Shown here one piece after another: positions 6,124 to 20,978 of a stretch of 52,949 nucleotides of DNA (its first letter is position 1; each line of letters opens with the position of its first letter). A program made the position numbers and the translations under genes. Below the pieces are notes generated by a model, which was not told the DNA's origin, did not search any database, and saw nothing but the letters and a program-made list of their open reading frames with translations. The DNA is taken from assembly GCA_026390015.1 (NCBI GenBank), contig JAPLGS010000165.1:27194-80142 (forward strand). The letters are read 5' to 3'. Origin of the DNA: Chloroflexota bacterium. GTDB taxonomy: Bacteria; Chloroflexota; Anaerolineae; Anaerolineales; Villigracilaceae.

Positions 6124-6148
6124 AATATAGCTTAAGGAGAACTCTTCC

Positions 6149-6595
6149 ATGACCACTGTCCGTAAATTACTCGAATCAAAAGGCACCGAAACTAATTATT
6201 CCGTAGCATCAACAGATACCGTTTTGCAGGCAATCAAGGTAATGACAGAAGCCCACATTGGCGCGGTGCTGGTCACTGAAGGCGGAAGGATCGTAGGAAT
6301 CTATACTGAACGCGATTATCTTTACAAAGGCGAGATCGACGGGCACTCGGCAAAAGACACGGTCATCAAAGATGTAATGATATCTAAAATGGTCACAGTC
6401 ACAAAAGAGACAACGGTCGAGCAGTGCATTGGGCTGATGAGACAATTCAACATACGCCATTTGCCTGTTGTGGAAAATGAACATCTCGTCGGTCTGGTCT
6501 CCATGCGTGACGTAATGTTTGCCGCAATTGAAAATAAAGAAAGCGAGATCCGCGGACTGGAAAATTACATCATGGGTTCAGGGTTTCAATCGTAA
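6149..6595 (+). CDS. Twin-CBS-domain protein, formate dehydrogenase-linked (copy 2)
   Basis: 148 residues, a paralogue of the protein at 2267-2713 with identical length and layout. CBS1 contains GAVLVTEGGRIVGIYTERDY and CBS2 contains NIRHLPVVENEHLVGLVS. Shine-Dalgarno TAAGGAG lies 10-14 bases before the ATG. It follows fdhA by 25 bases and ends the operon, just ahead of a strong terminator. The most likely role is a nucleotide-sensing partner of the oxidoreductase, possibly as a hetero-oligomer with copy 1. That is an inference from duplication and position. Confidence 0.85.
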   Translation: MTTVRKLLESKGTETNYSVASTDTVLQAIKVMTEAHIGAVLVTEGGRIVGIYTERDYLYKGEIDGHSAKDTVIKDVMISKMVTVTKETTVEQCIGLMRQFNIRHLPVVENEHLVGLVSMRDVMFAAIENKESEIRGLENYIMGSGFQS

Positions 6596-6606
6596 TAAAA
6601 GCAATA

Positions 6607-6664
6607 TTTATAAACCAAAAAGATGCGCAGGCTTAATAACCTTCGCATCTTTTTGGTTTATAAA
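6607..6664. terminator. Bidirectional terminator with 21-bp perfect stem
   Basis: Bases 6607-6627 are perfectly complementary to 6644-6664, with a 16-base loop that can add three more pairs (AGG/CCT). The stem contains CCAAAAAGATGCG, so T-rich tracts follow the GC core in both directions. It lies between the end of the hydrogenase/formate dehydrogenase operon (+) and the end of the MBOAT/SGNH operon (-), which converge here. Confidence 0.85.
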
Positions 6665-6736
6665 TTACGATGCTATATTTTTTCATCAGCCGCTTTCGCA
6701 GCAATCGCCAGAAATGTAGATTTAAGAATCAGTCTC

Positions 6737-7663
6737 TTATTTTTCAAGCACCGAACTTAAGAGTTCAATGATGTGATCAGTACGCGCACCTCGTCCAATG
6801 CTGTTCATATGATACACCGTATCGTAAAAATAATCTTCAGGATAGATAAAATCCTGCGGGGATCCGACAATAGGAATTTCAAGCTCGGAGGTGAGTTGGC
6901 CATAAAAAGCCTGTAACTTTTCCTTTTGGGCATTGTATTCATCTACCGGTATGGCCGGGAACATGAATAGCATCTGAGCATTGGCCGAAATCCCTGAACG
7001 ATAAAACACATTAAGCAAAGTAACTGCAGGGTTTGGAGAGATAATCTCAATCTGGTCCACATGGTTGTTGGGAGTCAGCTTATCTGCCCGTTTTAGGTGT
7101 GAGATCAAATCTCCGTTCTCATTAAAGGCCTGTCGGTAGTAAACTTTATCGTGTATATCAGGACTTTTTATATTTCGTAAAATATCGCCTTCAGACATCT
7201 GAAGAAAACCTACGAGCACATTGAAAAACTGCCCCGTCGTACTTATACCTGAAATACAATCAAAGCATAATTTGATCACAGATCCTAATTCTCTGGGGTA
7301 TCCATTTAAAGGTATCTTATGAAATAGTTCATACTCAGGAAAAACCACAACAATGTCACCACTCCTGATAGCAGATGCTGCTTCATTTAGCATATATCTT
7401 AATCCCAAATCGCCATGCAAGCCCATATTAATCACAGGCATTCCAAAACGTTTTTCAATCTTTTCGCTATTCACACTAAAGGCAAGGTTGGAACCACCAA
7501 CCAAAATAATCTTTGGAGACTTTGTTAAGTAAAGTAGGCGGTGTTTATCAAGCGCAGCAGCAAGGTAATTATTGGTATCGTGCGGACTAGTTCCCACAAT
7601 AAGAACAAGAAATACCGATACAATCAACCCTAAAAACAGAATGTTTGACGCAAGTCTACGCAT
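6737..7663 (-). CDS. Membrane-anchored SGNH-like protein, partner of MBOAT
   Basis: 308 residues. An N-terminal anchor helix (about residues 8-25) is followed by an extracytoplasmic domain. ILVGGSNLAFSV (GGSN at 56-59) fits the nucleophile block of SGNH/DltD/AlgJ-like proteins, and VVVFPEYELF and a C-terminal DTVYHMNSIG (D..H block) fit the rest. The gene starts 15 bases after the MBOAT gene ends, so the two are probably cotranscribed. By analogy with AlgI/AlgJ and DltB/DltD, it would receive or transfer an acyl group onto a surface polysaccharide or other exported acceptor. The acceptor cannot be named from the sequence. Confidence 0.7.
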   Translation of the reverse strand: MRRLASNILFLGLIVSVFLVLIVGTSPHDTNNYLAAALDKHRLLYLTKSPKIILVGGSNLAFSVNSEKIEKRFGMPVINMGLHGDLGLRYMLNEAASAIRSGDIVVVFPEYELFHKIPLNGYPRELGSVIKLCFDCISGISTTGQFFNVLVGFLQMSEGDILRNIKSPDIHDKVYYRQAFNENGDLISHLKRADKLTPNNHVDQIEIISPNPAVTLLNVFYRSGISANAQMLFMFPAIPVDEYNAQKEKLQAFYGQLTSELEIPIVGSPQDFIYPEDYFYDTVYHMNSIGRGARTDHIIELLSSVLEK

Positions 7664-7678
7664 GGAAATATCATCCGA

Positions 7679-9139
7679 TTAAAATTGGAAGTAAATAAAA
7701 TCCGTTGGGATTGAGTAAATCTTCCCGAAAACAAGGATACAAATCAGGATTCCAGCGTAAAGCGACCAACGGATTATAGGGGATTTGTCTGCCAGAATGG
7801 CCAAAATAGATTTTCGTTCTTGAAAATAATGAACAACTTCCATGATCGCGATCGCGAACAAAGTGACCATCAATTCATAATCAGTAAATATAGTGCGAAC
7901 CAATTTCATTAGCTCAGGTTTATCAGACCAACCTGTAAATACTTTCGCTGCAATAAAGAAAGCAGACTGAATCGAAGGAGCTCGGAAAAATATCCATGCA
8001 TAACATACAAACACAAAGACAACTAGCCTTCGAAGAAAATTCGTTCCCCAAATTGGCAGTTTGATTCGAGTCTTATGCAATAATACATTCTGTAAATTTT
8101 GGAGCTTAATTTCTAAAATAATATAAAGACCATGGAGTGCCCCCCAAACTACAAAGGTCCAGCCAGCTCCGTGCCACAGCCCACTTACAAGAAAAACGAT
8201 TGCCAAATTTAATTGCCACCTCCACGGAGGCACTCGATTCCCACCTAAAGGAATGTATAAATAATCCCTAAACCAAGACGATAGGGAAATATGCCAGCGT
8301 TTCCAAAATTCTGAAAAGGAAAGAGAAAGATAAGGCCTTTTGAAATTCACCATTAAATTAAAGCCCATAACTTGGGCAGCACCAATAGCAATATCACTGT
8401 ACCCGGAAAAATCGCAAAAAATCTGCATGGCAAAAAACGCTGTTGCGAGTGCTAGTTGAGGGCCTGAGAAAGCCTGCGGATTGCTATAGTAGCGATTCAC
8501 CAAAGGCGCAAGCCTATCTGCGACCACAACCTTTTTATACAGACCCCAAGTCATTAGTTTCAGGCCGTTTGCGACTCTTTGATAATCAAAAAAATGTTCC
8601 TCATGAAATTGGCGTAGCATATTTTGTGGACGTTCAATGGGGCCAGCCACCAACTGTGGATAGAACAGCACATATAGCGCGTAAATACCAAAATGTCGTT
8701 CTGTTTGCTGATTTCCCCGAAAGACTTCGATGGTATAGCTCATCGCCTGAAAGGTGTGAAAGGATAATCCAATCGGAAGAATTATTTTCAAATTTTCCAT
8801 CGAGTAATTCCAACCAATCATACCTGCCAAAGCGACAATATTTGTGTTCACAAAGTTAAAGTACTTGAAAAATGCTAGAAAGCCAATATTCGCGACCAAA
8901 CTCATTAGCAGATACAATTTTTTTCTTCTTGAAGTTTTGGCTTCCTCAATCCAAATACCTGCAAAATAGTCTACAATAATAGTCGTACCGAGAATCAATA
9001 TATAAGATGGCACAAAAGCCATATAAAAATAAGCGCTTGCGCCAAGTAAAAGCCACCAGCGGTGTTTGTGAGGCAACAAAAAATATAATATTGTGACAAT
9101 TGGGAAAAACAATGCAAATTGAAAAGAGTTAAAGAGCAT
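7679..9139 (-). CDS. MBOAT family O-acyltransferase (AlgI-like)
   Basis: 486 residues from the ATG at 9139, giving the usual MBOAT beginning MLFNSFQFALFFPIV. A longer frame begins at 9163 but lacks a Shine-Dalgarno. Multi-pass membrane protein with the family signatures FSEFWKRWHISLSSWFRDY, YIPLGGNR and SGLWHGAGWTF, the last containing the catalytic histidine. AlgI-type enzymes move acetyl or other acyl groups across the membrane to a secreted glycan. Its partner is the SGNH-like protein directly downstream. No glycosyltransferase or polymer gene is next to it, so the acceptor is unknown. Confidence 0.88.
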   Translation of the reverse strand: MLFNSFQFALFFPIVTILYFLLPHKHRWWLLLGASAYFYMAFVPSYILILGTTIIVDYFAGIWIEEAKTSRRKKLYLLMSLVANIGFLAFFKYFNFVNTNIVALAGMIGWNYSMENLKIILPIGLSFHTFQAMSYTIEVFRGNQQTERHFGIYALYVLFYPQLVAGPIERPQNMLRQFHEEHFFDYQRVANGLKLMTWGLYKKVVVADRLAPLVNRYYSNPQAFSGPQLALATAFFAMQIFCDFSGYSDIAIGAAQVMGFNLMVNFKRPYLSLSFSEFWKRWHISLSSWFRDYLYIPLGGNRVPPWRWQLNLAIVFLVSGLWHGAGWTFVVWGALHGLYIILEIKLQNLQNVLLHKTRIKLPIWGTNFLRRLVVFVFVCYAWIFFRAPSIQSAFFIAAKVFTGWSDKPELMKLVRTIFTDYELMVTLFAIAIMEVVHYFQERKSILAILADKSPIIRWSLYAGILICILVFGKIYSIPTDFIYFQF

Positions 9140-9212
9140 TCTTATTAATCCAAAAAAAAACAAACAAGTATGGAAATGGAGTGTTTCGCTAAAGCCTACA
9201 GCACGGCTTATT

Positions 9213-11351
9213 TCAACTTCGCTTCAACTGCTCTTCAACTGCTCTTGCAACTTTACTCAACGCATCGCTCACAGTGCCTGCTGAAGCGGGCAGACTGCCT
9301 TGCGCCAGGTTCGGACGGCCACCGCCCTTGCCGCCAATAGATTGGATGATGTCGCCAGCTTTGAGTCCTCGCTTGACAAGGTCTTCGGTCACCACGGCGA
9401 TGACAGTTGATCCAGTCGCCAGGACAGCCACTCCTTCTTTGGGATATTTCTCGCGGAATTTATCGGCCAACATTCGCAGAGTATCCACATTTGAGTCGGG
9501 GATTTCCAAAGCCAGCACATTGATATCCTTCACGAGTCGCATGTTTGAAAGTTGAAGGTTGAAGGACGAAAGAGCTGACTGTACGCGGAGATTTGCTAAT
9601 TCCTTTTTGAGATCCGAAATTTCATCTTGCAAAGAATCAACTTTCGCAGGAACTTCTTCCACGCTGGATTTCAACGCACCTGCAGTTTGCTTTAATGTCT
9701 TGAATCTTTTTATGATCAACTCATATGCACCGCGACCTGTGACCGCTTCGATGCGGCGAATCCCCGCTGCCGCAGAACCTTCACTGACGATGATGAACGC
9801 GCCAATGTCGGAGGTGCGATCGATGTGTGTACCGCCGCAAAGTTCGAAGGAATATTTGGAATCCGCTTTTTCAGATAGCAAACTATCTGACTCCAAAATG
9901 GAGATTGTCCTAACGATCTCACCATACTTCTCGCCGAACAAAGCCATCGCGCCTTCCTTCTTGGCTTCATCGAGCGACTTGGTCACTTTAACTACAGGCA
10001 TATCTGCCGCAATCGCTTCGTTGACCATCTTCTCGACACGTTCAATTTGTTCGGGAGTCATCGCGTCAGGTTGAGTGAAGTCAAAACGAAGATGTGTCGG
10101 CGAGACCAGCGAACCTGCCTGACGGGCGTGGTCACCGAGAATTTCATGCAGCGCCTTGTGAAGCAGATGTGTGGCTGTATGATTTCGCATGATGTTGTGA
10201 CGTCGGACGGTGTCCACTTCAGCGGTGACTTTGTCGCCAACTTTGGGCTGACCAGAAATGACCTGTCCGATGTGTGTGATGGTTCCAGCGGCAGCGCGAC
10301 GAATGGAAGTGATTTCAATTTCCCAATCGTTGCCACGGATGTAACCTTCATCATTTACCTGCCCACCAGATTCAATGTAGAAACCTGTCTTGGGTAAAAT
10401 AACTTCGACGACATCATCGAGAGCAGCGGATGAAACTGATTCACCGTTAACGATCAACGCTAAAATTTCACCGTCTATTTTGGGGCTATTGTATGGATCA
10501 TATTCAACGCCGTCTTTACCTAGTTTCTTTTTGACTTGCAAATCTTTCAAAACGTTTGCAAAGAATTCCGAATCTTCGCCGCCGAGTTTGCCCATGGCTT
10601 TGCCGCCGCCAGAGGCTTTGCTATGTTGATTCTTCGCTTCTGTGAATCCTGCTTCATCAATATCAAGTCCCTGCTCACGGGCGATGTCACGGGAGATTTC
10701 AAAAGGCAAGCCATAGGTGGCGTAAAGGTCGAAGGCTTTGTGGCCGTCAAGAACAGGTAATTGGGAATTAGGGATTTGGGATTGGGCGCGAATTTCGTCA
10801 AGCTGATTCTGTAAATGAGCAGTACCCGCTTCAACGGTTCGAGCGAAGCGGATTTCTTCACGAGTCAGGTTATCTAAAATGGTCGCCTTGTTCTTTTCCA
10901 GTTCGGGATAAAAGTCGCCATATTCGGCGACGACGGCTTCGGCAACTTTGGCGAGGAACGGTTGGTTGAGTCCGATCTTGGTGCCAAAGCGCGCGGCGCG
11001 TCGAATGATCATGCGGGTGACGTAGTTGCGGCCCGCGTTGCCAGGTACGACGCCATCGGCGATGAGGAAGGCGGCCGAGCGGACGTGATCACAGATAACG
11101 CGGTAGGGCGTGAAGTTTGCGAGCATTTCTTTTTCGGTGTGACTCGCGAGCGAGCGCAGAACTTCGAGCGAACCTGTGAAGAGGTCGGTCTTATAATTTG
11201 AGTCGACGCCTTGCAGAACGGAGACGATGCGCTCAAAACCCATGCCTGTATCAACGTGCTTGGCGGGCAGCGGCTCGAGGCGGCCATCTTCGAAGAGATT
11301 GTATTGAATGAAAACGTTGTTCCAACAGTTCGAGGAAGCGCGTGCATTCAC
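9213..11351 (-). CDS. alaS: Alanyl-tRNA synthetase, C-terminal part (after frameshift)
   Basis: This frame carries residues from [14 protein letters not shown] to the C-terminus of AlaRS. It holds the end of the catalytic domain, the editing domain (HTATHLLH and [13 protein letters not shown] zinc-binding motifs) and the C-Ala/DHHA1 domain with [13 protein letters not shown]. True coding sequence begins near 11325; the residues before WNN are out of frame. The N-terminal part lies in another frame (11251-11967). A single extra base around 11324-11325 (minus strand CTGTTGG where CTGTGG would keep the frame) separates them. The joined protein would be about 917 residues, a normal length. AlaS is essential, so a sequencing error or a second copy elsewhere is likely. 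Confidence 0.88.
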
Positions 11352-11967
11352 CGTTCACACCGCAGACGTGATCTGTGCCGCGCAAGTTATCGCGCTCTTC
11401 ACCGAGATCAAGATGGATTTCAGAACATGGTCCGCACGGACCGAACTCTGCCATTTGCCAGAAATTTTCTTTGCGTCCGAAAAATAAAACATGCTCGGGG
11501 TTGAATCCGGATTGCTGTTTCCAAATATCGGCGGCTTCATCATCTTGAGGCACGTTACCACTATCATCTTGAAAACAAGTGGCGTAGAGTCTGTCTTTGG
11601 GCAAGCCCCACACTTCGGTCAGTAATTGCCACGACCAGCCGATGGCGTCCTTTTTATAGTAATCACCAAATGACCAGTTGCCGAGCATTTCAAAGAATGT
11701 GTGATGCGTATCGTCGCGGCCCACATCTTCAAGGTCGTTGTGTTTGCCGGCCACGCGCATACACTTCTGCGAGTCAACGGCGCGTTTGTACGGGCGCGTA
11801 TCTGTGCCGACGAACACATCCTTGAATTGCACCATGCCCGAGTTGGTGAATAGCAAAGTCGCATCGCCGCCTGGGACGAGTGACATGGACGGCACGGCGG
11901 TATGCCCGTGCTCGACGAAGAAATCAATAAAGTCTTGGCGGATCTGGTTGCCTGTTAGTTTTTTCAT
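11251..11967 (-). CDS. alaS: Alanyl-tRNA synthetase, N-terminal part (before frameshift)
   Basis: Start ATG at 11967, with GGAG five bases upstream. It opens with [20 protein letters not shown] and carries the class II motif 1 and 2 regions ([30 protein letters not shown]) and [10 protein letters not shown] of AlaRS. After CTRFLEL the frame departs into an unrelated tail (LEQRFHSIQ...), while the expected WNNVFIQYN continues in the next frame. True coding therefore ends near 11325. The role is charging tRNA-Ala with alanine in the cytoplasm. Confidence 0.88.
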
Positions 11968-11998
11968 TCAAACTCCAAAATATGATGATGACTGGCGA

Positions 11999-12004
11999 AT
12001 TATA
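11999..12004 (-). promoter_or_regulatory. Putative -10 box of alaS
   Basis: On the minus strand, TATAAT (12004-11999) sits 32 bases ahead of the alaS start. The -35 region is weak (around 12022-12027). No T-box leader was recognised between here and the upstream terminator. Confidence 0.45.
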
Positions 12005-12161
12005 CCAAGTGAGTTGAATGTTGGAACGTTGAAAATTGACCGGCAGAGTCTATGAAAGATTCCACAGAGAAAAGCCTGCGCTCTCCATAGTTTTCTGTTC
12101 CTCCTGTCATTATCGCAGCGGATAACTGATCAGTTCCACGAGGCAATGGTGGAGCCTGGCA

Positions 12162-12200
12162 AAACAAAAGGCATCTTCGAAAGAAAGATGCCTTTTGTTT
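12162..12200. terminator. Strong hairpin terminator after the J-domain gene
   Basis: AAACAAAAGGCATCTT (12162-12177) pairs perfectly with 12185-12200 through 16 base pairs around a 7-base loop. T-rich arms follow the GC core on either strand. It lies 24 bases past the end of the J-domain gene and upstream of alaS, so it insulates alaS from that transcript. Confidence 0.8.
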
Positions 12201-12223
12201 ATTCACTGAATAAGGAGGCAAGC

Positions 12224-12928
12224 TTATATGACGCTCAGTAAATAGCGTCTCTCTTGAACAAGTTGTTCTAAGCGCCGTTTTCGTTTTTCAACTTCGTCAA
12301 AAATGGGTTTGTAATTTTTTTTGTAAAATTTTGCACGCTCGTTGAAAAGATAAATTCCAGCGATTAGTGAAAATGCGCCAATGAAATATAAAAAAGTAAT
12401 ATCTACAATATAAGCAATCAAAAATATAACAAAACTACTAAGAGAAAGTGAAATAGCAAATATCGAAGTGGGCAGTTTGGGCAATTCCTTACTTATTTTA
12501 CTTATTTCCTCCTTGATCAACGAAATTTCCTGGTCCAATTGGCTTACCTTTTGGCCTTGCACATCTTCTTCGCGATCAATAGTTTCGCGCCTTTTTTTCC
12601 ATCGTGATTCTTTGACGTGCTGTGCCACTTCATCTTCCCGGCGGCGTTCATCTTCAGCTTGGCTTTGAGTTGTTGATCGACTGGATTCATGCTTGTGACT
12701 GGATTCTATATAACCAGCGTGACGATCATACTCTGTCCGCTTGGCTGGATTTCCAAGGATCACGTATGCAGCGTTTATCTCTTTTATTCTTTCTTCAGCT
12801 TTTAACTTCTGAGTGGGATTTGGAAATTTATCAGGATGCCATGCCTGTACAAGAAAACGATATTGTTCTTTAACGGCTTCTTGGGATGTATCATGTGCTA
12901 TTTCGAGAATTTTATAATAATCTTTCAT
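12224..12928 (-). CDS. Membrane-anchored J-domain (DnaJ-like) protein
   Basis: 234 residues. The J domain spans about residues 2-70, with HPD at 31-33 (the DnaK-stimulating loop) and the family ending NPAKRTEYDRHAG. A charged, glutamine/arginine-rich segment and a coiled coil (about 85-150) follow, then two adjacent membrane helices (about 156-175 and 177-195) and a basic C-terminal coiled tail. The zinc-finger and substrate-binding domains of true DnaJ are absent. This is a class C J-protein that probably recruits DnaK to the inner face of the membrane. Its client is unknown. Confidence 0.85.
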   Translation of the reverse strand: MKDYYKILEIAHDTSQEAVKEQYRFLVQAWHPDKFPNPTQKLKAEERIKEINAAYVILGNPAKRTEYDRHAGYIESSHKHESSRSTTQSQAEDERRREDEVAQHVKESRWKKRRETIDREEDVQGQKVSQLDQEISLIKEEISKISKELPKLPTSIFAISLSLSSFVIFLIAYIVDITFLYFIGAFSLIAGIYLFNERAKFYKKNYKPIFDEVEKRKRRLEQLVQERRYLLSVI

Positions 12929-13211
12929 TAGAATAATACGCCCTTTACATGAGATTCAACATAATTTGTAACTTGGTCAAGTTATCGTGGAAAATCATTT
13001 TCCACGATTCTCTTTGGAAATCTTATCATAAGACAGGGTTGATGAAAAATGCTCTAAACAAGATATTTCGAAAGGAATTGAAATTTGTATTTGCTCCTGA
13101 AGATTGCAGAAGACTGAGAGTCAAACCTGAAATTATCGCCAGCAAATAAATGAGCTTGCGCTGGCTACTTGGTTCATCCGCCCGGAATTGAGCGGTAACA
13201 ATGGAATATCC

Positions 13212-13233
13212 TGCTATTTTACCCTCATAATTT
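13212..13233. repeat. Shared 22-base motif, copy 1
   Basis: TGCTATTTTACCCTCATAATTT, identical to 21132-21153. Partial similarity extends on both sides (TATC before, GCAG after). On the minus strand it reads AAATTATGAGGGTAAAATAGCA, which contains a TAAAAT -10-like box. It lies upstream of the minus-strand J-domain gene. Confidence 0.6.
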
Positions 13234-13330
13234 CCCGGGGGCAGTAAAATTGTGCTTTTGAAAAATAAACTGATGAATGAACCAGGTAGCTGTCAATAAA
13301 TCCGTTTTTTTTAGTTTTGAAAATTCGCTG

Positions 13331-13358
13331 TTGAAAATTACTTAAAATTGACTATACT
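13331..13358 (+). promoter_or_regulatory. Promoter of the two-gene membrane-protein operon
   Basis: TTGAAA (13331-13336), a 16-base spacer and TATACT (13353-13358) form a sigma-70-like promoter 21 bases before the ATG at 13380. Confidence 0.6.
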
Positions 13359-13379
13359 AAGGCTAGGATCAAAAACATA

Positions 13380-13775
13380 ATGGTTGCGTCAAACAACGAT
13401 ACATTTCTCGAACAATTAATTCAGAACCAGCGCCGAGCCATTCGGTATTATGTATTTTTTGCTGCGAGTCTGGTTACTTTGGGAATTATTGTTATCGTAA
13501 TAGCCTTTGTCTCTCCAGTCTGGCTCGATGCAAACTCCCCCATTGTTCCAGATACGTTTAAAGGGCTATTTGGTATGGGGGGCGCTTTTGTGTCATCCTT
13601 GAGCGCATTTCAGGTCAAGGAAATTCTAAATCGAAAAGAAAAAATCCAGGCGTTTGAAACTATCAAAGGGCAAATGCAAAAGCTAAAAAGCACTCCCAAA
13701 TCAAAGAGGGAAGATTCACAAAAACGGTTGGAAGAACTAATTTGGAAAGTCCTTGAAAAGACAGCTCTCAGCTAA
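13380..13775 (+). CDS. Small two-helix membrane protein, unknown
   Basis: 131 residues, not recognised. Two hydrophobic segments are visible: about residues 24-45 (YVFFAASLVTLGIIVIVIAF) and 58-76 (a glycine-rich FKGLFGMGGAFVSSLSAF). A basic, helical cytoplasmic tail with a coiled-coil look follows (EILNRKEKIQAFETIKGQMQ onwards). It is separated by 15 bases from a second membrane protein with a long coiled coil, so the two may form one complex. A good promoter precedes it. Confidence 0.65.
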   Translation: MVASNNDTFLEQLIQNQRRAIRYYVFFAASLVTLGIIVIVIAFVSPVWLDANSPIVPDTFKGLFGMGGAFVSSLSAFQVKEILNRKEKIQAFETIKGQMQKLKSTPKSKREDSQKRLEELIWKVLEKTALS

Positions 13776-13790
13776 AGGTATGAATTATTT

Positions 13791-14600
13791 ATGGAACCAA
13801 CTCCAGAACAGATAGAATCTCTTAATAAGAATATCGAGCAATATGAACAAAAAGCCCGTTTTCGAGCATGGTTGTTCACTATAATCCCATTGCTTTTCGG
13901 GGTTATTTTATTGAGCTATACCGTTTGGCAAATTCAAAACTATGGGCAAAAGCTTGTTGAAGTTCAAGTGAAACTTGATAAAACCACCACCGAATTAAAC
14001 GACTCAATTATTGCGTTACAGGATGCGAGGAAACAACTTGACCTAGCGAATACTGATCTTACTGCTGTCCAGGGTAAATTGAATACTACTTCCAGGGAAC
14101 TGGAAAAAACTCAGAAAGAACTCGATAATATCCAAAAGGAATTGGATGATGCGAATGAAGAATTGAAAAGCGCCAATGTTTTCCTGGCAAATTCCTATTC
14201 AATAGACGCAATAGATGAGAAAAATTCTTTGTCGTTCTTTCCCATTCAATCAGATGTTTTATACTATATTCAGGAACTTCAATATTCCAATGTAGGTTGG
14301 AATCGAAACGGTTTTTCTGAAGTCGAAGGATTTAACTCGCCGAATTTTTCCGTTTATGTTTTGCAACATTTTGGGCTTGTCTCAGGGAACTACAATGCTG
14401 ACGCGAAGCCCTGGCAAATACTGGAACCTGCTAATGAACTTTCGATTGGCGACATCGTTTATTATGAAGGCGGCTATTCCATGTTTTACTATGAGATAAA
14501 CAGAGATAGATTCGTCATAGGCATGACTCCATTGGGAATTATTGCCCAAAGGCTCAATTTTGCACCTATTCTCGGTTATCTTCACGTTCCTTATCAATAA
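13791..14600 (+). CDS. Membrane-tethered coiled-coil protein with a degenerate NlpC/P60-like domain
   Basis: 269 residues. One membrane helix (about 26-47) is followed by a heptad-rich coiled coil (about 50-130, with repeats such as ELEKTQKELDNIQKELDDAN) and a globular C-terminal domain (about 150-269). The globular part has the outline of an NlpC/P60 fold. FNSPNFSVYVLQHFGL stands where DCSGFVxYVYxxxGI is usual, then LSIGDIVYYEGGYSMFYYE stands where LxPGDLVFF...GHVGIY is usual. The catalytic Cys and His positions are not conserved (N185/F186/S187; SMFYYE), so if the resemblance is real this is a non-catalytic version. It probably faces outside the membrane. The fold assignment is tentative. 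Confidence 0.6.
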   Translation: MEPTPEQIESLNKNIEQYEQKARFRAWLFTIIPLLFGVILLSYTVWQIQNYGQKLVEVQVKLDKTTTELNDSIIALQDARKQLDLANTDLTAVQGKLNTTSRELEKTQKELDNIQKELDDANEELKSANVFLANSYSIDAIDEKNSLSFFPIQSDVLYYIQELQYSNVGWNRNGFSEVEGFNSPNFSVYVLQHFGLVSGNYNADAKPWQILEPANELSIGDIVYYEGGYSMFYYEINRDRFVIGMTPLGIIAQRLNFAPILGYLHVPYQ

Positions 14601-14620
14601 TCCTTCGTCAAAATTATCTC

Positions 14621-14669
14621 AAAAGTAAAACGGTCTCGGGCGAAATGTCAACGAGACCGTTTTACTTTT
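14621..14669 (+). terminator. Terminator with 18-bp stem
   Basis: AAAAGTAAAACGGTCTCG (14621-14638) pairs perfectly with 14652-14669 around a 13-base loop, and the T-rich right arm ends in TTTTT. It lies 21 bases after the coiled-coil gene. The A/T arms make it usable from both strands. Confidence 0.85.
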
Positions 14670-14703
14670 TGGTATATCCAAAATATGAGGTTCGATCAAA
14701 ATT

Positions 14704-14940
14704 TTATTTCACAGGCTTTAGCACATTGACTGGAGTCACACGCGTAGTCTTGCGATAGTAGTCATCAAAACCAGGCATGACTTCAACCATCTGATTAATC
14801 AAGCGTGCCCGCTCTGGTTCTTCTGCATCCGTCGCAAGGGCTTGGAAATTTTCCTCATCAAATTTGATGCAAGCTACTGGATTATTCCGTTGACGAAGGA
14901 CTGGATATCTTTGTTTACAGAATAATAAAAACGCCAACAC
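14704..14940 (-). pseudogene. Remnant of a deazaflavin (F420)-dependent nitroreductase family gene
   Basis: 78 codons. The last 35 or so (ARLINQMVEVMPGFDDYY, then RKTTRVTPVNVL) match the C-terminal signature of the deazaflavin-dependent nitroreductase (Ddn/DUF385) family, where R-x-x-x-x-PGFxxYxxKTTRxIPVxVL is typical. The N-terminal half (signal, substrate and F420-binding part, about 70-80 residues) is missing. Upstream sequence has no matching frame and runs into a terminator hairpin at 14932-14959. It is most likely a 5'-truncated gene relic. Family assignment rests on this short segment only. Confidence 0.5.
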
Positions 14941-14959
14941 AAACGAATTTGCGTTGGCG
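14921..14959 (-). terminator. Minus-strand terminator
   Basis: On the minus strand, GTTGGCG pairs with CGCCAAC (14953-14959 with 14932-14938) and is followed by TTTTTATTATT (14931-14921). It would end transcripts coming from the cohesin/protease locus. It overlaps the apparent start of the nitroreductase remnant. Confidence 0.6.
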
Positions 14960-15185: not shown

Positions 15186-15704
15186 TCACCTTACATTCAC
15201 TTTTCCATCTATCAACGAAGCTTGTATCGCCATTCCATTTGAATCGGAGAAAAGAGCGCCTGCTGGAGCGGCTTGCGTCCCAAGAAAACGGATTGGAGAA
15301 TCGCCGCTGGCCTTGGCGCGGAAAATAATCTCCAATAGCGTCCCACTGCCATTGGCTGGCACACTGTTGATTTGTGCTACTGCATAATCAATTGTGCCCG
15401 ATGCATTATCGAATGCATTCTGAACGACAAAATCCGCATTGATAAAACCACCTCCATTCAATTCTGTAACTTCCAGCACGGTTGTGTCGAAGGACAGATG
15501 GATTTCGACTCCAATGAGATTAACGATATTCTCAACCTTAATGAGCACCTTAACAGTGTCGTTGATCCTAACTTGCGAGATAGCCGGTTCAACTTTTATA
15601 GCAGTACCAGATGGCGCGCATGATGATAAAAGAATCAACACTGCTAATACAGTAACCAGCCAAATACGAATTGCCAATAGATAACGGAAAATGGTATTCT
15701 CCAT
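15186..15704 (-). CDS. Cohesin-domain lipoprotein
   Basis: 172 residues. The N-terminal signal peptide ends in a lipobox (ILLSSC), predicting a lipid-anchored surface protein. Residues about 37-172 form a single cohesin-like domain. Visible are INDTVKVLIKVENIVNLIG, then IHLSFDTTVLEV, SGTIDYAVA, NGSGTLLEIIFRAKASG and DSNGMAIQASLIDGKVNV, in the order seen in type I cohesins. Cohesins bind dockerins, and the metalloprotease encoded 1.4 kb away in the same orientation has one. The protein could be a lipid-anchored docking point. It is similar to the first domain of the neighbouring LysM protein, so the two probably arose by duplication. Confidence 0.8.
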   Translation of the reverse strand: MENTIFRYLLAIRIWLVTVLAVLILLSSCAPSGTAIKVEPAISQVRINDTVKVLIKVENIVNLIGVEIHLSFDTTVLEVTELNGGGFINADFVVQNAFDNASGTIDYAVAQINSVPANGSGTLLEIIFRAKASGDSPIRFLGTQAAPAGALFSDSNGMAIQASLIDGKVNVR

Positions 15705-15732
15705 CTTACAATTTAGTTAGGAAAATAATTAG

Positions 15733-16881
15733 CTACGGAATGCACAGTTGCTGGCCTGGATAAATGAGCGTTGGATTCGAAATTTGATTTACACGGGCAA
15801 GTTCTGTGTAACTGGTACCGTATTGGGTTGCAATGTGATACAGCGTATCTCCCGAAACAACGGTATAGGTAGCTTTACATGTCGATGATGGAACCGCGGT
15901 AGTTGTGGTTGGAATAGCGGTCACTGCAGTTGTAGTGGGGATCGGAGTAGTAGGAATAACAGTTGTGGGAATTGCAGTAGGTGACGCAGGTGTTGTGGAT
16001 GCCGTAAACTGGGACTGACAAACCGGGCCAATTGACATATTTGTCCATGCAATATTAGGGACGAGCAACTTTTGATTTGAGAAGATCAGATACGGCCACC
16101 ATATGCCATTTTTCTCCGCAATCGCCAAAGGAGAAACTCTATAAGCGCGTCCAATACAATAGAGCCATTCCCCGGAGCGCACGACATGCGTTCCCAAAAT
16201 GCCTCCAACAGCGATCGGTATTGGTGTGGCTGATGGCGTGTTCGTTGGGACGATGGCTGTATTCGTTGGAGTGTTTACAGGTGTGATCGTTGGTCCTGTT
16301 GGGGTATTCGTCGGGGGGACTACAGGCGTGCTTGTTGGGACCATAGGTGTAAACGTTTGTGTCGGACTCCCGCCTACATTAACACTACCGCCAGTCCATG
16401 ACGCCTGTATCGAGATCCCGTTTAAGTCTGACAAAAGGAATCCGCTTGGAACAGCCGCCGTTCCATGCAAAGCAACGGTTGAGATGCCAGAAGCCTTGGC
16501 GCGAAAAGATATGTTGAGCAATGTGCCGCTCCCTTGAGCCGCGGGACGGTTCAGCTGCGCAACGGCGTAATCAATTGTGCCAGCGGTGTTATTGAAGGTA
16601 TTCTGCGGAGTAATATCAGCAAGAACAAAACCACCGTTCGTCACCTGAAGCACTTCCAGCACACTCGGGTTGAAGGACAGGTGCAGTTCAAATGCAGTGA
16701 GGTTGGCAATGTTATCAACTTTAATTGATATATTAGCGGTGTCGTTTATCTGCGCTAAGAGCGCGGGGGGATCAACCCGGACTACAGCAGCGCTCTGTGC
16801 AAAAGCCGATATTCCCGTCAGGGAAAAGGCAATGACGATCATGATAAACAAAATTCGAATCACTAACAATTTACGTGGCAT
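15733..16881 (-). CDS. Secreted cohesin protein with LysM domains
   Basis: 382 residues from the ATG at 16881, which has GGAG six bases upstream; a longer TTG-started frame (16893) overlaps that Shine-Dalgarno. A signal peptide ends near SAFAQS. Then comes a cohesin domain (VRVDPPALLAQINDTANI...FELHLSFNPSVLEV...GSGTLLNISFRAKASG), a Thr/Pro-rich linker, a first LysM-like module (HVVRSGEWLYCIGRAYRV), a second Thr/Pro linker and a clear C-terminal LysM (YTVVSGDTLYHIATQYGTSY...NPTLIYPGQQLCIP). LysM binds peptidoglycan or chitin-type glycans. The protein looks like a cell-wall adaptor that presents a cohesin to dockerin-bearing enzymes. Confidence 0.85.
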   Translation of the reverse strand: MPRKLLVIRILFIMIVIAFSLTGISAFAQSAAVVRVDPPALLAQINDTANISIKVDNIANLTAFELHLSFNPSVLEVLQVTNGGFVLADITPQNTFNNTAGTIDYAVAQLNRPAAQGSGTLLNISFRAKASGISTVALHGTAAVPSGFLLSDLNGISIQASWTGGSVNVGGSPTQTFTPMVPTSTPVVPPTNTPTGPTITPVNTPTNTAIVPTNTPSATPIPIAVGGILGTHVVRSGEWLYCIGRAYRVSPLAIAEKNGIWWPYLIFSNQKLLVPNIAWTNMSIGPVCQSQFTASTTPASPTAIPTTVIPTTPIPTTTAVTAIPTTTTAVPSSTCKATYTVVSGDTLYHIATQYGTSYTELARVNQISNPTLIYPGQQLCIP

Positions 16882-17070
16882 GGGAAACTCCAAAATCTAG
16901 ATTGAGATAAATTTTCATATTTAATCCTGTCGCTTTTATTGCTCCCGCCTCGTATCAAAAAAGGCAAGATTTAGTATCGTCAAACTAGCATCACTTGCTG
17001 TTACGACCAAAGCGCTGATATTGATCTCGGCAGTTTTATTTGCCAATGCGGATTTCAGCACAAAACCTAC

Positions 17071-20000
17071 CTACTGGCATACCGTGTAAGGAGTAGAGTG
17101 GGTGGCGATTGCGTCGATCCAGGCTATGAATTCAGGTGTATTCGGCAAGCAAACAGTGGTTGGATATGTAAAAATTGTCAATCTAACCAGGTTGCGTAAA
17201 CTATCTGGCATTATCCCAGAAAATGGGTTGCCAACTAAAATAAGGTATTTCATATTGGTGAGGTTCCCTAGTTGAGATGGGATGCCACCGGAAAGTCCAT
17301 TCCAACCGATATCAAGGTGAGTCAAGTTTGTCAAGTTGCCTAATTCTGGTGGGATGCTGCCGGAAAGTCTATTCTCTTTGATGTCAAGAACAGTCAGGTT
17401 TGTCAGGTTGCCTAATTCTGATGGGATGCTACCAGTCAATTGGTTATACCCCAGAAAGAGATTTGCGAGGTTCATCAGGCTGCCCAGTTCTGATGGAATG
17501 CTGCCAGATAATTCGTTATATCCCAGCCCGAGCTCAGTAAGGTTCGTCAGGTTTCCCAGTCCCGCCGGGATACTGCCAGTCAATTGGTTACTATTTAGAT
17601 TCAAGCCTCTCACATGGCCGCTGTTACAGGTAATGCCATGCCAGGAACAGGGTGTATTGGTAGCCAACCAATCTGTTTTATTTACCCAGCCGCTGCCATT
17701 TGTACTATTGTACAAGGTAATCAGAGCATTGCATTCAACCAAAGGAATTTCGGTTACTGTATCACATCCAATAACAGACACGTTTGTGGATGTTGGATTA
17801 GGAGTGTACGTTGGTGTTGAAGTAGGAAATGCGATTGGCGTGAATGTAAACATAGGTGTAATGGTATTATCAAAAGTAGGGGTGATCGTGGGTGCAATAT
17901 TTACAGTGGGTGTAACGCTGACTGTGGGCGTTATCGAATCCGACGGTCCTACTTTGCCCCAGTTTCCGGCCGTGATTGCGAGGTCACTGATGTTGACACT
18001 GCCGTCATCATTGATGTCGGCTGATTCATCTGTGATGCTGCAATCTGTCGTGGAAGATTTTACCGCGACGGCCGCCTGTCCAAATTTGCTGATGATCGTC
18101 CCGATGTCCAATATGTTGATGGCATTATCAGCATTGACATCACCGCCAGCCAGCGTTGGAGTTTTCCAATCTACTACCATCGAATTTTCCACTAAAACAT
18201 TTGCTATTTCCGAATCCAAATAACCGGGATAACTGACATGGAAAGTGTATGTGCCCGTAGCCAGATTGTCCAACTGGAATTCTCCATTGATGTTTGTATA
18301 AATGGGATTTACTTCCGAAGCAGTTCCGCCGACTCTTACACTTGAGCAAGCCAGGCTGCCATTGCCTGTATTCGGATTGGCAGGAACGCCCTGGCGCTGG
18401 ATCATTACTCCTGCGACGGCGGGTTTGATAACCGTATAGCTCTCACCACTTATAAAGGGCAATCCAGCCAATGGACTCCCGACTATGTCGGTGACGGTTG
18501 CGCTAGCGGAAATATCCAAACGCAAGTCGCCGTTACCTGTACCTGTGTTGACAGATACTGTATAGATGACGGGGCCGCCAATAACACCTGCGACAGATTC
18601 GCCACTGATCGTGTCAGTTTTGGTTAATACAAAATCACCTGCATCCACACCTACGACTTCTTCGGAGAACGTGACTGTAAAGTCCACGCTGGCGACGCTG
18701 GTGGGATTCGTGCTGGCGCGAACAATAGAGTTTACAATGGGTTCGGAGTTTTGCGCGGCAATATAATTAACAGCGCCAACCTCTGTCGCGATTAATCCAG
18801 CCACGGAAACTTGAAGGTCAAAAAATCCATTGGAAAGTTGCGCCGGTGGCATCACTTCCAATGTGTAAATACCGGACAATTCCTGTGCGTCAACAACAGC
18901 AGCTTCCATCCCACCGATCATGACAGAAAATGCACTTTTGGCGAGACTCTGAGTCGTTTGAACCACAATGTCCATTTGATTTGGATTGGTATAACTTCCA
19001 GCAAAGCCGGTATTTATTTGAGTTGGAGATAATATATTCAAATATTCACCAATGGTAACTATAAAGCCGGTGGCAGTTGCCGAATCTATATGTACCGATA
19101 TATTGTTGGTCTTATCCGTGAACGTTTCTCCGGCAACCCACATGGCTCCTCCATCACTCGTAATCCCATTTCCATCGGCATCAATCACATTGGCGGGAAT
19201 CGCTCGCGTAGTATCTACCTCGTGGATTATGACTGCCGGCCCCGCAAGTTTTTTGTCGTATCCGACAAGCCGCCGAGCTTCCAGCGTGTAGAAATGAGTG
19301 CTTGATCCGCCAATTGGGATCTGAGCCATTTTGTAGTTCGTGGTGGCAGGCAGGGCTAGCTGCTCAAGGGTTATTGTTGCTGTTAAGTTGCTCGCTATAA
19401 ATGTGAATTTTTCCCCGGCGGGTATCCATCCCAGCTTATCTTTATGGAAAGAAATAGTGTGTTGCCCAACACAACCATAAGTGGAATCTTTGGAAGCGTC
19501 GCAGTTATAGCGGTCTTTGCTCATCACATCCCAGGCATTGTCATAAACCTCACCATAACTACCTGAAGAATGTGGCAAGCCGAAGCCATGTCCCATTTCA
19601 TGTTGTATGACAGAAATATCAGCATATGCCCAAGGGGGTTCCCAGGTTACGCTCCACACTTTCGTTATCCCATCTATTGTTCCGTACCAGCCTCCACCAA
19701 TAGCCACGCCATGCAGCCAGTCGAAGTTAAACATCATATTGATGCCGCCACTTTTGTAGAGTGAAAAATCTATAACGGCATCTGCAGCACCTATACAATC
19801 AGATGCTAATAGATCAAGGCTTTCATAATTTGCCGCGGGTTCTGGCAACACAAACCAGCCAGCGGCATTACTTCCCGCAATATTAATTGCGCCATATGAT
19901 TGTTCACGCCAGTAATGATCCAATCCAGGCGGAGTGTTCGAGTACATGCCCTGAAAAAACAACTGATCTCGTGGTTCTGCGGGCACATCATTGAATTTGC

Positions 20001-20469
20001 ACATGATAGTTATCCAGGGTCTGGATCCAGTTACTGCTGATGAGATCTCTGCCCTCCTGGCCAGCGAATCAAGGGCAATAGCAGCCACGTATAAAGATGC
20101 TGTTATGTTCTGCCTCGCCAATGTGACTGCAGGAGTACCCACTACTGTTATATGTTTACCATTCAGCGCCGAAGCCCCACCGAATGGTTGAGCCAGGGTT
20201 TCGTCTATCAAAAGCAATGTTGTCTGCCCGTTATCTTCTGTCAGAGTGTAAATGGGCGCTTCTGATTTAATACTATTTAAATTATCCTGCCACCGGATAA
20301 TGAACCATCCGGAGAGTGATTGGTCTTCTTCTTTGTCAGACAGTGCGGCGGGGAACGATGCTTCAGCAAAATCGTTCCCGGCAAATGCCAAATTATGACT
20401 TCCGTTGCCAAACAACAATCCAAGAATAATGATAATGCCGGCAAACTTGAAAATATATTTTTTTTTCAT
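17071..20469 (-). CDS. Secreted metalloprotease with dockerin and plant-type LRR domain
   Basis: 1132 residues. In order: signal peptide (about 1-30); an OB-like GWF domain (about 52-112) shared with the next lipoprotein; a zinc metalloprotease domain with HEMGHGFGLPH (H290, H294, H300) and a Met-turn-like WDVMS; beta-sandwich domains with FTVTFSEEVVGVDAGDF (Ig-like, about 590-690); a carboxypeptidase-regulatory-like segment (IYTNINGEFQLDNLATGTYT); a dockerin with two Ca-binding repeats (DVNADNAINILDIG, about 775; DINDDGSVNISDLA); a Thr/Pro linker; and LRRs of the plant type (LTGSIPSELGNLTNLT, about 925-1100) headed by a CSWHGITC cap. Predicted to be extracellular. The dockerin could attach it to the two cohesin proteins encoded downstream. 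Its substrate is unknown. Confidence 0.85.
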   Translation of the reverse strand: MKKKYIFKFAGIIIILGLLFGNGSHNLAFAGNDFAEASFPAALSDKEEDQSLSGWFIIRWQDNLNSIKSEAPIYTLTEDNGQTTLLLIDETLAQPFGGASALNGKHITVVGTPAVTLARQNITASLYVAAIALDSLARRAEISSAVTGSRPWITIMCKFNDVPAEPRDQLFFQGMYSNTPPGLDHYWREQSYGAINIAGSNAAGWFVLPEPAANYESLDLLASDCIGAADAVIDFSLYKSGGINMMFNFDWLHGVAIGGGWYGTIDGITKVWSVTWEPPWAYADISVIQHEMGHGFGLPHSSGSYGEVYDNAWDVMSKDRYNCDASKDSTYGCVGQHTISFHKDKLGWIPAGEKFTFIASNLTATITLEQLALPATTNYKMAQIPIGGSSTHFYTLEARRLVGYDKKLAGPAVIIHEVDTTRAIPANVIDADGNGITSDGGAMWVAGETFTDKTNNISVHIDSATATGFIVTIGEYLNILSPTQINTGFAGSYTNPNQMDIVVQTTQSLAKSAFSVMIGGMEAAVVDAQELSGIYTLEVMPPAQLSNGFFDLQVSVAGLIATEVGAVNYIAAQNSEPIVNSIVRASTNPTSVASVDFTVTFSEEVVGVDAGDFVLTKTDTISGESVAGVIGGPVIYTVSVNTGTGNGDLRLDISASATVTDIVGSPLAGLPFISGESYTVIKPAVAGVMIQRQGVPANPNTGNGSLACSSVRVGGTASEVNPIYTNINGEFQLDNLATGTYTFHVSYPGYLDSEIANVLVENSMVVDWKTPTLAGGDVNADNAINILDIGTIISKFGQAAVAVKSSTTDCSITDESADINDDGSVNISDLAITAGNWGKVGPSDSITPTVSVTPTVNIAPTITPTFDNTITPMFTFTPIAFPTSTPTYTPNPTSTNVSVIGCDTVTEIPLVECNALITLYNSTNGSGWVNKTDWLATNTPCSWHGITCNSGHVRGLNLNSNQLTGSIPAGLGNLTNLTELGLGYNELSGSIPSELGSLMNLANLFLGYNQLTGSIPSELGNLTNLTVLDIKENRLSGSIPPELGNLTNLTHLDIGWNGLSGGIPSQLGNLTNMKYLILVGNPFSGIMPDSLRNLVRLTIFTYPTTVCLPNTPEFIAWIDAIATHSTPYTVCQ

Positions 20470-20552: not shown

Positions 20553-20978
20553 TCAGTCAGCGCCTGCAAATTGGACGGACAATACACGGACGATCCTCGG
20601 CGAGTCGTTTATAATCTCGCCGACCATTGTGATTCGTTTGCGATCAAGTTCGAGTGGACCTCCAAGCAGTTTTGCTGTCTCATCATCTAACAATAATTGG
20701 GTGACCTGACCCTGATCATCGGTAATTGAATAATGTGGTTTGCCGTTCCAAATTGTAGTAAACCAGCCTGTTATGGTAACCTGTTTTAAAGAAGTTGGCG
20801 CCTTGATAATGGCGGGTGTTTCTGTAGATCGTGTAAATGAACTTGGAGTGGTGTCAATTGATGAATTGGAGTTGGATGTTGCTATTTTATCCAAGGGATA
20901 ATTAACAGGGGAGCAAGCAGCTAGCAAAGACCCACATAATAAATTTAGCAGTAGGAACCAATTCAAATATAAGCTCAT
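20553..20978 (-). CDS. Small lipoprotein sharing the N-terminal domain of the metalloprotease
   Basis: 141 residues. The signal peptide ends in a lipobox (GSLLAAC). A Ser/Thr-rich linker leads to a domain reading GWFTTIWNGKPHYSITDDQG, then QVTQLLLDDETAKLLGG and KRITMVGE. The same pattern (GWF...IY.LT.DNGQTT.LLID..LAQPFGG...HITVVG) occurs near residues 54-112 of the neighbouring protease. The repeated-hydrophobic pattern suggests a small beta barrel. It lies 83 bases upstream of the protease in the same direction, so it is probably the first gene of the operon. The function is unknown; it may be a membrane partner or inhibitor of the protease. Confidence 0.7.
   Translation of the reverse strand: MSLYLNWFLLLNLLCGSLLAACSPVNYPLDKIATSNSNSSIDTTPSSFTRSTETPAIIKAPTSLKQVTITGWFTTIWNGKPHYSITDDQGQVTQLLLDDETAKLLGGPLELDRKRITMVGEIINDSPRIVRVLSVQFAGAD

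Follow-up and report, generated by a model that had tools for sequence, protein, structure and literature searches.

The window, a stretch of 52,949 nt on contig JAPLGS010000165.1 from a Chloroflexota bacterium (Villigracilaceae), carries a four-gene cluster encoded entirely on the minus strand (Table 1). The sequence-only reading had placed genes for a lipoprotein with a cohesin, a cohesin-LysM protein and a metalloprotease with a dockerin side by side, and the three genes were confirmed at exactly those coordinates. Beyond that reading, a fourth gene was found upstream of the protease, and the protease itself was found to carry an X module and C-terminal leucine-rich repeats (LRR). The product of the fourth gene resembles the N-terminus of the protease (38% over 61 aa, E 2e-10, in a single BLASTP comparison). 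It had no match in Pfam or NCBIfam, and its copy in a sister MAG is L034:2071-2472. The region has 6 terminator-like sites, and shuffled sequence gave 6.7.

Table 1. Features of the cohesin-dockerin cluster, numbered from the first nucleotide of the window.
Feature	Position	Strand	Basis
Lipoprotein, 141 aa, related to protease N-domain; first cluster gene	20553..20978	-	BLASTP
Secreted metalloprotease (predicted), 1132 aa	17071..20469	-	N-domain, catalytic, middle domains, X, dockerin, linker, LRR
Catalytic domain, aa 131-480	19030..20079	-	Zinc motif HEMGHGFGLPH and Met-turn WDVMS
Mosaic breakpoint	19208..19308	.	200-base window identity to sister MAG
X module, CarboxypepD_reg-like, aa 690-773	18151..18402	-	Pfam 28.1 bits, under cut-off 32.3
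Dockerin, aa 774-841, two complete calcium loops	17947..18150	-	Pfam and alignment
C-terminal LRR, aa 941-1132	17074..17649	-	LRR_1 60.1 bits; region by own profile
Cohesin, Thr/Pro linker and two LysM (predicted wall anchor), 386 aa	15733..16893	-	Pfam
Cohesin lipoprotein (predicted membrane anchor), 172 aa	15186..15704	-	Cohesin PF00963, lipobox LSSC
Terminator-like hairpin, 12 pairs and T tail, behind last gene	14932..14959	-	Weak

Both cohesins exceeded the PF00963 cut-off of 24.1 bits (40.3 bits in the lipoprotein, 40.7 bits in the LysM protein). The LysM protein has a Sec-type signal, read by eye, and its two LysM stretches scored above cut-off (92.6 bits), which marks it by profile as a putative secreted wall protein. 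The lipobox and the LysM matches support the earlier proposal of one probable membrane anchor and one probable wall anchor. A PDB sequence search with the cohesin profile gave 19 distinct sequences (best 1.7e-13), every one named scaffoldin, cohesin or cellulosome-anchoring protein. In a fold search with a predicted model as query (mean pLDDT only 59), the best 50 of 54 matches (E <= 0.001; best 6.7e-7) were cohesins, scaffoldins or their complexes, and both cohesins were assigned to PF00963 on score and fold. Among the matches listed, the closest solved cohesins in sequence and fold were those of clostridial type II cohesin and X-dockerin (1qzn, 2b59, 4u3s, 5g5d), at fold-search identities of only about 13-22%. 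Chance Pfam matches were rejected as an explanation, since the scores, the gene order in relatives and the PDB sequence and fold matches argue against them.

The zinc motif and Met-turn of the protease are kept in 12 distinct homologues. On these motifs alone (HExxHxxGxxH plus Met-turn) the protein is placed among the metzincins, the model of the catalytic region having a pLDDT of 29.6. The NCBIfam M6 domain TIGR03296 scored 52.1 bits, below the curated cut-off of 110.8, so that the protease is an M6 relative and not a member by that cut-off. Reprolysin/M11 matches in Pfam were also below cut-off.

The Dockerin_1 match (aa 776-832) scored 29.7 bits at a cut-off of 22.9 and, with both calcium loops, places the module in the type I dockerin family PF00404. 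All ten calcium-loop positions are kept in the window protein, and the dockerin thus retains the calcium-binding residues on which the earlier proposal depended; across 15 aligned rows nine of the ten are invariant and the tenth nearly so. Between the window and the sister MAG, dN/dS was 0.09 for the X module and 0.10 for the dockerin, the strongest purifying selection among all modules, and 0.17-0.18 for the cohesins.

On the contig of the sister MAG, which comes from a lake community, all four genes recur in unchanged order. In 200-base windows its identity to our sequence was 47-71% above the breakpoint; below it, as far as 15138, identity was 76-93%. An exception to this mosaic is the 44-codon linker in the LysM gene (dS 1.42; NG86 values are rough near saturation). 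The enzyme end is much more diverged than the docking end, synonymous sites included. Exchange by recombination therefore fits better than relaxed selection, which was rejected on that ground.

The search for the gene trio in relatives covered 152 genomes of the family and bore out its conservation: the cassette is present in 15, where a single contig holds the whole trio in 11 and contig ends interrupt it in the remaining 4. In 13 of these 15 genomes the dockerin belongs to a cohesin-like-X-dockerin link protein (229-383 aa) that has no recognised enzyme domain. Only the window genome and one sister MAG were found to have the protease in its place, so a trio dedicated to a protease holds for these two genomes but not for the other 13. 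LysM proteins of some relatives have two cohesins each. Assignment of the link N-terminal domain to the cohesins is not secure: Pfam was under cut-off in 5 of 13 members, the hhalign probability was 39%, and its profile gave 0 matches against PDB sequences. In the dockerin tree, with 7 loci from other families as outgroup, the protease dockerins form one clade (100/100) within the links, beside two link rows (90/90), on a fairly long branch (0.42); several deeper forks are weak. This nesting indicates that a protease took over the position of the N-terminal domain in the link, and on this ground the protease as ancestral cargo was rejected, the weak deep forks notwithstanding. Since most relatives with the cassette have the dockerin on a link protein that is no enzyme, the enzyme was seemingly swapped into an older surface system. 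The other 40-50 dockerin-bearing genomes of the family have a different locus type, with no LysM in those inspected. One scan of genome contigs returned a single locus.

The 4.3-Mb window genome has six cohesin matches, two in the cluster and four on contig C169, and three dockerins by the X-dockerin profile, one in the cluster and two on C169. The C169 dockerins scored 61 and 54 bits with this profile versus 253 for the window dockerin; with plain PF00404 the pair reached no more than 14.1 bits (E 0.25). By profile, the proteins at this locus combine a cohesin with a dockerin in one chain, and the C169 proteins had no M23 match. A further dockerin candidate on C123 (21 residues, 13.5 bits) was dismissed after a Pfam scan of the 2941-aa protein gave no dockerin match. 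Both anchor cohesins of the cluster could serve the C169 proteins instead, which is a counterpoint to the platform proposed below. Each of the six cohesin matches is the single cohesin of its protein, and the three dockerin proteins had no glycoside hydrolase match. A miniature cellulosome, with a multi-cohesin scaffoldin and plant-cell-wall hydrolases as cargo, was therefore rejected for this genome. The assembly suggested earlier is cellulosome-like only in its predicted cohesin-dockerin clip, a device that cellulose-digesting bacteria are known to use; a scaffoldin with many cohesins and cellulase cargo were not found here.

Of the family's dockerin ORFs, 75 were inspected, and 68 of them have a cohesin as well. 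One set had 59 ORFs less 1 duplicate, that is 58 (56 with cohesin), and the second had 17 (12 with cohesin); L034 and L106 (G151), both 10,103 long with equal ORF lengths, are the same locus and were counted once. These loci were picked non-randomly from hit lists, one set partly targeting dockerin contigs without a cohesin match, and class-level loci with further dockerin ORFs, in which no cohesin was detected, lie outside the count. Cohesins were called by our own profiles (E <= 0.01), the type B profile being built from ORFs initially found by the trio profile; Pfam listed no cohesin for L189. The seven ORFs without cohesin comprise the two proteases, L191:5296-6033, L192:3972-5654 (dockerin only 20.0 bits), L198:2894-3754, and two cut at the contig start, L199:3-422 and L200:1-483. 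Cut ORFs showing a cohesin (e.g. L193, L194, L195, L202) were retained. Elsewhere in the Chloroflexota, dockerins occur on proteins with M23, C39, S8 or amidase domains, and no glycoside hydrolase family was found among the 38 dockerin proteins scanned. Peptidase_M23 occurred in all 8 large cohesin-dockerin proteins scanned from relatives, and Amidase_2 on such protein(s) in another family. There are independent peptidase-dockerin cases within the class, one of them adjoining a cohesin-LysM gene.

Non-cellulosomal cohesin and dockerin systems were reportedly treated by Peer et al. in 2009. They are known from ANME archaea (PMC9012536) and from a pair in Archaeoglobus fulgidus (PMC9705933). To judge from the available portions of these papers, the window genome resembles such systems in its few cohesins and dockerins, in having no tie to cellulose degradation and in some proteins with both modules, and differs by its conserved trio, its LysM and lipoprotein anchors and its metalloprotease cargo. 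In the accessible parts of two papers on Ruminococcus flavefaciens, adaptor scaffoldins such as ScaC have one cohesin and one dockerin per protein, with 5-11 copies per strain (PMC4081043), and dockerin proteins include peptidases (16 modules, one labelled metalloprotease) and LRR (PMC2930009). The link proteins of relatives and the C169 proteins are ScaC-like in combining both modules by profile; the window protease, which lacks a cohesin, is not such an adaptor, and its peptidase and LRR recall those R. flavefaciens dockerin proteins. However, in the same texts these proteins belong to a complete cellulosome, which has some 180-223 dockerin proteins and is anchored by way of sortase, against 3 dockerins in the window genome (PMC4081043, PMC2930009). 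As in the clostridial type II systems, an X module precedes the dockerin and the predicted role is anchoring, but here the X module is CarboxypepD_reg-like and the anchors are LysM and lipid. Ca. Stygibacter (Cloacimonadota) has dockerin-bearing peptidases (S8/S53, C25) proposed to act in a surface complex; according to the part of that source at hand (PMC8542988), it uses a 3,755-aa multi-cohesin scaffoldin, unlike the single-cohesin anchors and different peptidase found here. A 2016 study lists, in its available part, no cohesin or dockerin for five curated Anaerolineae genomes and UNI-1 (PMC4877987).

We consider it reasonably probable that the cluster encodes a small docking platform, anchored in wall and membrane, with a protease fused onto it. 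The cohesin-LysM protein would sit in the peptidoglycan and the cohesin lipoprotein in the membrane. The metalloprotease, presumed to be proteolytically active, would clip to either anchor through its X-dockerin in a calcium-dependent manner, and its LRR may bind the substrate. The platform would be an older Chloroflexota cassette whose usual dockerin partner is the link protein. In the window lineage a protease would have displaced the N-terminal domain of this link, which thereby became a terminal enzyme; since then the enzyme end may have diverged or been exchanged while the docking end stayed constant.

The same docking could serve to act on the wall or surface layer of the cell itself, in maturation, shedding or turnover, with the upstream lipoprotein as regulator or receptor. 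The M23 and amidase domains on relatives' cohesin-dockerin proteins point this way, as does the paralogy of that lipoprotein with the protease N-domain; however, the C169 proteins lack M23, and the LRR and S8 examples are equally compatible with external substrates. We hold this to be possible but doubtful, and it differs from the platform reading in substrate alone, the docking mechanism being shared. It is unlikely, in our view, that the anchored cohesins mainly hold C169 cohesin-dockerin proteins in a head-to-tail fibre, with the protease as a cap or site competitor. The spread of cohesins and dockerins over two loci would suit such a chain, and so would the cohesin on both C169 dockerin proteins and most family dockerin ORFs, but the C169 dockerins are distant from that of the window, and the single cohesin-dockerin proteins of R. 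flavefaciens are described, in the part of the paper available, as adaptors and not as fibres (PMC4081043). Least probable is that the dockerin serves a structural purpose as a calcium module, or has its partner elsewhere, the neighbourhood being a relic of the link cassette. The pairing is read from sequence and the protease-dockerin branch is fairly long, yet the calcium-loop residues are kept, the X module and dockerin are the most constrained modules, and the gene linkage is preserved in the sister MAG.

To our knowledge, cohesin-dockerin pairs have few known jobs outside cellulosomes. We suggest, with much reserve, a general surface chassis in Chloroflexota, in which head-to-tail chains of proteins that each have a cohesin and a dockerin, rooted in LysM wall and lipid/TM membrane cohesins, would carry wall hydrolases or peptidases instead of cellulases, with enzyme domains swapped by lineage and one such swap caught in the two sister genomes. 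The family supplies a small, conserved and testable set of two anchors and one partner, and a natural before/after pair, the link protein in relatives and the protease in the window lineage. Two questions thereby become testable with short proteins, namely whether proteins with one cohesin and one dockerin assemble into chains, and by what route a docking system acquires an enzyme.

Four consecutive genes make up the locus, separated in gene order by 83, 177 and 28 bases. A terminator-like hairpin of 12 pairs lies past the last of them (14959-14932). Such sites are no commoner in the region than in shuffled sequence (6 versus 6.7), so the four genes are called a likely operon on spacing only. 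In Pfam, the two cohesins, the two LysM domains and the dockerin all scored above cut-off. The protease is composed of a signal sequence, an N-domain, a catalytic domain, a middle region, a CarboxypepD_reg-like module (X), the dockerin, a Thr/Pro linker and a C-terminal LRR. Its catalytic domain contains HEMGHGFGLPH and the Met-turn WDVMS, and scored 52.1 bits against the NCBIfam M6 model, below the cut-off of 110.8. The N-domain is related to the lipoprotein encoded upstream. At 13380-14600, convergent with the operon, adjoining genes encode two predicted membrane proteins, of 131 aa and of 269 aa; the latter contains a long coiled coil. No family exceeded its cut-off in either.

Genes of the cohesin-dockerin cluster in the window
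Product	Coordinates	Strand	Place in cluster
Lipoprotein, 141 aa	20553-20978	-	First of four
Metalloprotease, 1132 aa	17071-20469	-	Second of four
Cohesin-LysM protein	15733-16893	-	Third of four
Cohesin lipoprotein	15186-15704	-	Last of four

The genome-wide count suggested by the sequence-only reading gave six cohesins and three dockerins in the window genome (4.3 Mb, 177 contigs): two cohesins at the window locus and four on another contig, C169. PF00404 detected one dockerin at E ≤ 0.001 and two more, weakly, on C169; a profile of X plus dockerin recovered all three at E ≤ 1e-8. C169 encodes two proteins of 529 and 562 aa with one cohesin and one dockerin each, followed by two further cohesin proteins. 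Peptidase_M23 was not found in its cohesin-dockerin proteins. Upstream on the same strand is a response regulator (L011:11858-13159), whose DNA-binding domain continues into a hydrophobic segment and an additional C-terminal part. A third contig of this genome, C123, encodes a surface protein of 2941 aa that has DUF7933 and SdrD_B repeats and, fused at its end, a sortase domain (L013:3137-11962).

Among 152 genomes of the family, cohesins were found in 67 and dockerins in 68 (E ≤ 0.01), the two lists overlapping in 64. The X-dockerin profile matched 64/152 at E ≤ 1e-8, and 15 of these carry an X-dockerin of the window type (each at least 213 bits; next score 82). The search for the trio of dockerin, cohesin-LysM and small cohesin genes in other Chloroflexota, also proposed earlier, bore out its conservation: it is complete on one contig in 11 of these 15 family genomes. 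A contig end interrupts the remaining four sets, and for three of them the absent cohesin piece was found at another contig's edge (L103, L108, L110). The small cohesin genes have a strict lipobox pattern in 8/14 cases and a Cys immediately after the hydrophobic stretch in a further five; L110 has neither. The gene set is kept, but in most of the relatives it includes no protease: the dockerin frame is short in 13/15 genomes and long only in the window genome and a sister MAG, G151. In one relative a CAP-LysM protein is encoded straight after the trio (L099:4913-5941).

The short frames encode a link protein, with no recognised enzyme domain before X and the dockerin. Its N-terminal domain (~145 aa in 13 genomes; only partly included in the L104 ORF) is read as a cohesin. 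It aligned along its length with the trio cohesins in one profile comparison (E 3e-4). At class level, the link N-terminal profile and the cohesin profile of a second locus type in the family, type B, both hit the same region at three loci, L174, L177 and L178. Cohesin was the sole Pfam name among 13 link domains scanned (a second copy from the L099 LysM protein included, L104 excluded), in 5/13 and always below the cut-off. Against this reading, the hhalign probability was only 39%; a PDB sequence search with the domain profile gave no match. In the X-dockerin tree, with seven loci from other families as outgroup (85/83), the protease pair fell within the links, next to two link rows (90/90), which argues that the protease replaced the N-terminal domain of a link.

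The same four genes occur in the same order in the sister MAG, an uncultured Chloroflexi (contig CAIWRB010000045.1). Identity to it was 47-71% from ~21031 to 19308 and 76-93% from 19308 to 15138, where homology stops (200-base windows). The step is sharp, at 19208-19308 within the end of the catalytic domain, and the enzyme side is synonymously saturated. By NG86, the upstream lipoprotein and the protease signal, N- and catalytic regions have dS values between 1.2 and saturation. The modules behind have 0.15-0.55, with a single exception, a short linker in the LysM gene (1.42). dN/dS was 0.09 for X, 0.10 for the dockerin, 0.17 and 0.18 for the cohesins, 0.17 for the catalytic domain and 0.20 for the LRR. 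This pattern looks as if the enzyme end had been exchanged while the docking end stayed constant. Matches to at least part of the 1132-aa protease came from 78 of 120 family genomes (G151 not included), mostly through shared middle or LRR modules; among the matches listed, long catalytic-part matches (E 3.3e-80 or better) came from ten genomes beside the window's. No dockerin was seen in these ten loci, three of whose ORFs run past the sequence end. At L021, one of the ten, an N-domain is encoded by a gene of its own upstream, as in the window.

We propose that the calcium-loaded X-dockerin of the protease would bind the cohesin of the wall LysM protein or of the membrane lipoprotein, as module identity, kept calcium loops, linkage and selection suggest. 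The loops were judged against the canonical calcium-loop positions of dockerins. A cysteine of X and another lying between the two dockerin loops are invariant in 15/15 rows and may connect these two modules. A surface location is predicted from the signal sequences, lipobox and LysM.

Non-cellulosomal cohesins and dockerins (PMC9012536), single cohesin-dockerin adaptors (PMC4081043) and dockerin peptidases have been published; PMC2930009, PMC8542988, PMC9705933 and PMC12484212 also concern these subjects. The cassette was not recognised in the literature searched, which was judged mostly by listing and whose coverage left out most subscription journals.

Nineteen inspected type B loci of the family encode one cohesin-X-dockerin protein and a larger one headed by Peptidase_M23. 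In most of these loci a cohesin-TM protein is encoded between the two. M23 was present in all eight large proteins scanned with Pfam, some of which also have a glucose/sorbosone dehydrogenase domain; L123:5300-9676 and L126:3124-8292 are examples of M23-headed cohesin-X-dockerin proteins. A cohesin is also present in 68 of 75 inspected family dockerin ORFs, the other seven being the two proteases, three other proteins and two ORFs cut by contig ends. Across the class, the X-dockerin profile matched 79/396 genomes. L179, a cluster of another family (5110-14878), encodes an S8 subtilase with a dockerin (22.5 bits, just below the Pfam cut-off of 22.9) directly adjoining a cohesin-LysM gene, and nearby an Amidase_2-dockerin protein whose cohesin was detected by profile only. 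L182, of the same genus, has another S8-dockerin protein (20.9 bits). A protein at L190 joins a C39-like peptidase to two cohesins and one dockerin. No glycoside hydrolase family was found by Pfam in 38 dockerin proteins, with thresholds differing between scans; beta-helix domains occur in several and a ConA-like lectin domain in one, and for some no cargo could be named. Peptidase cargo is a theme of these dockerin proteins rather than a rule.
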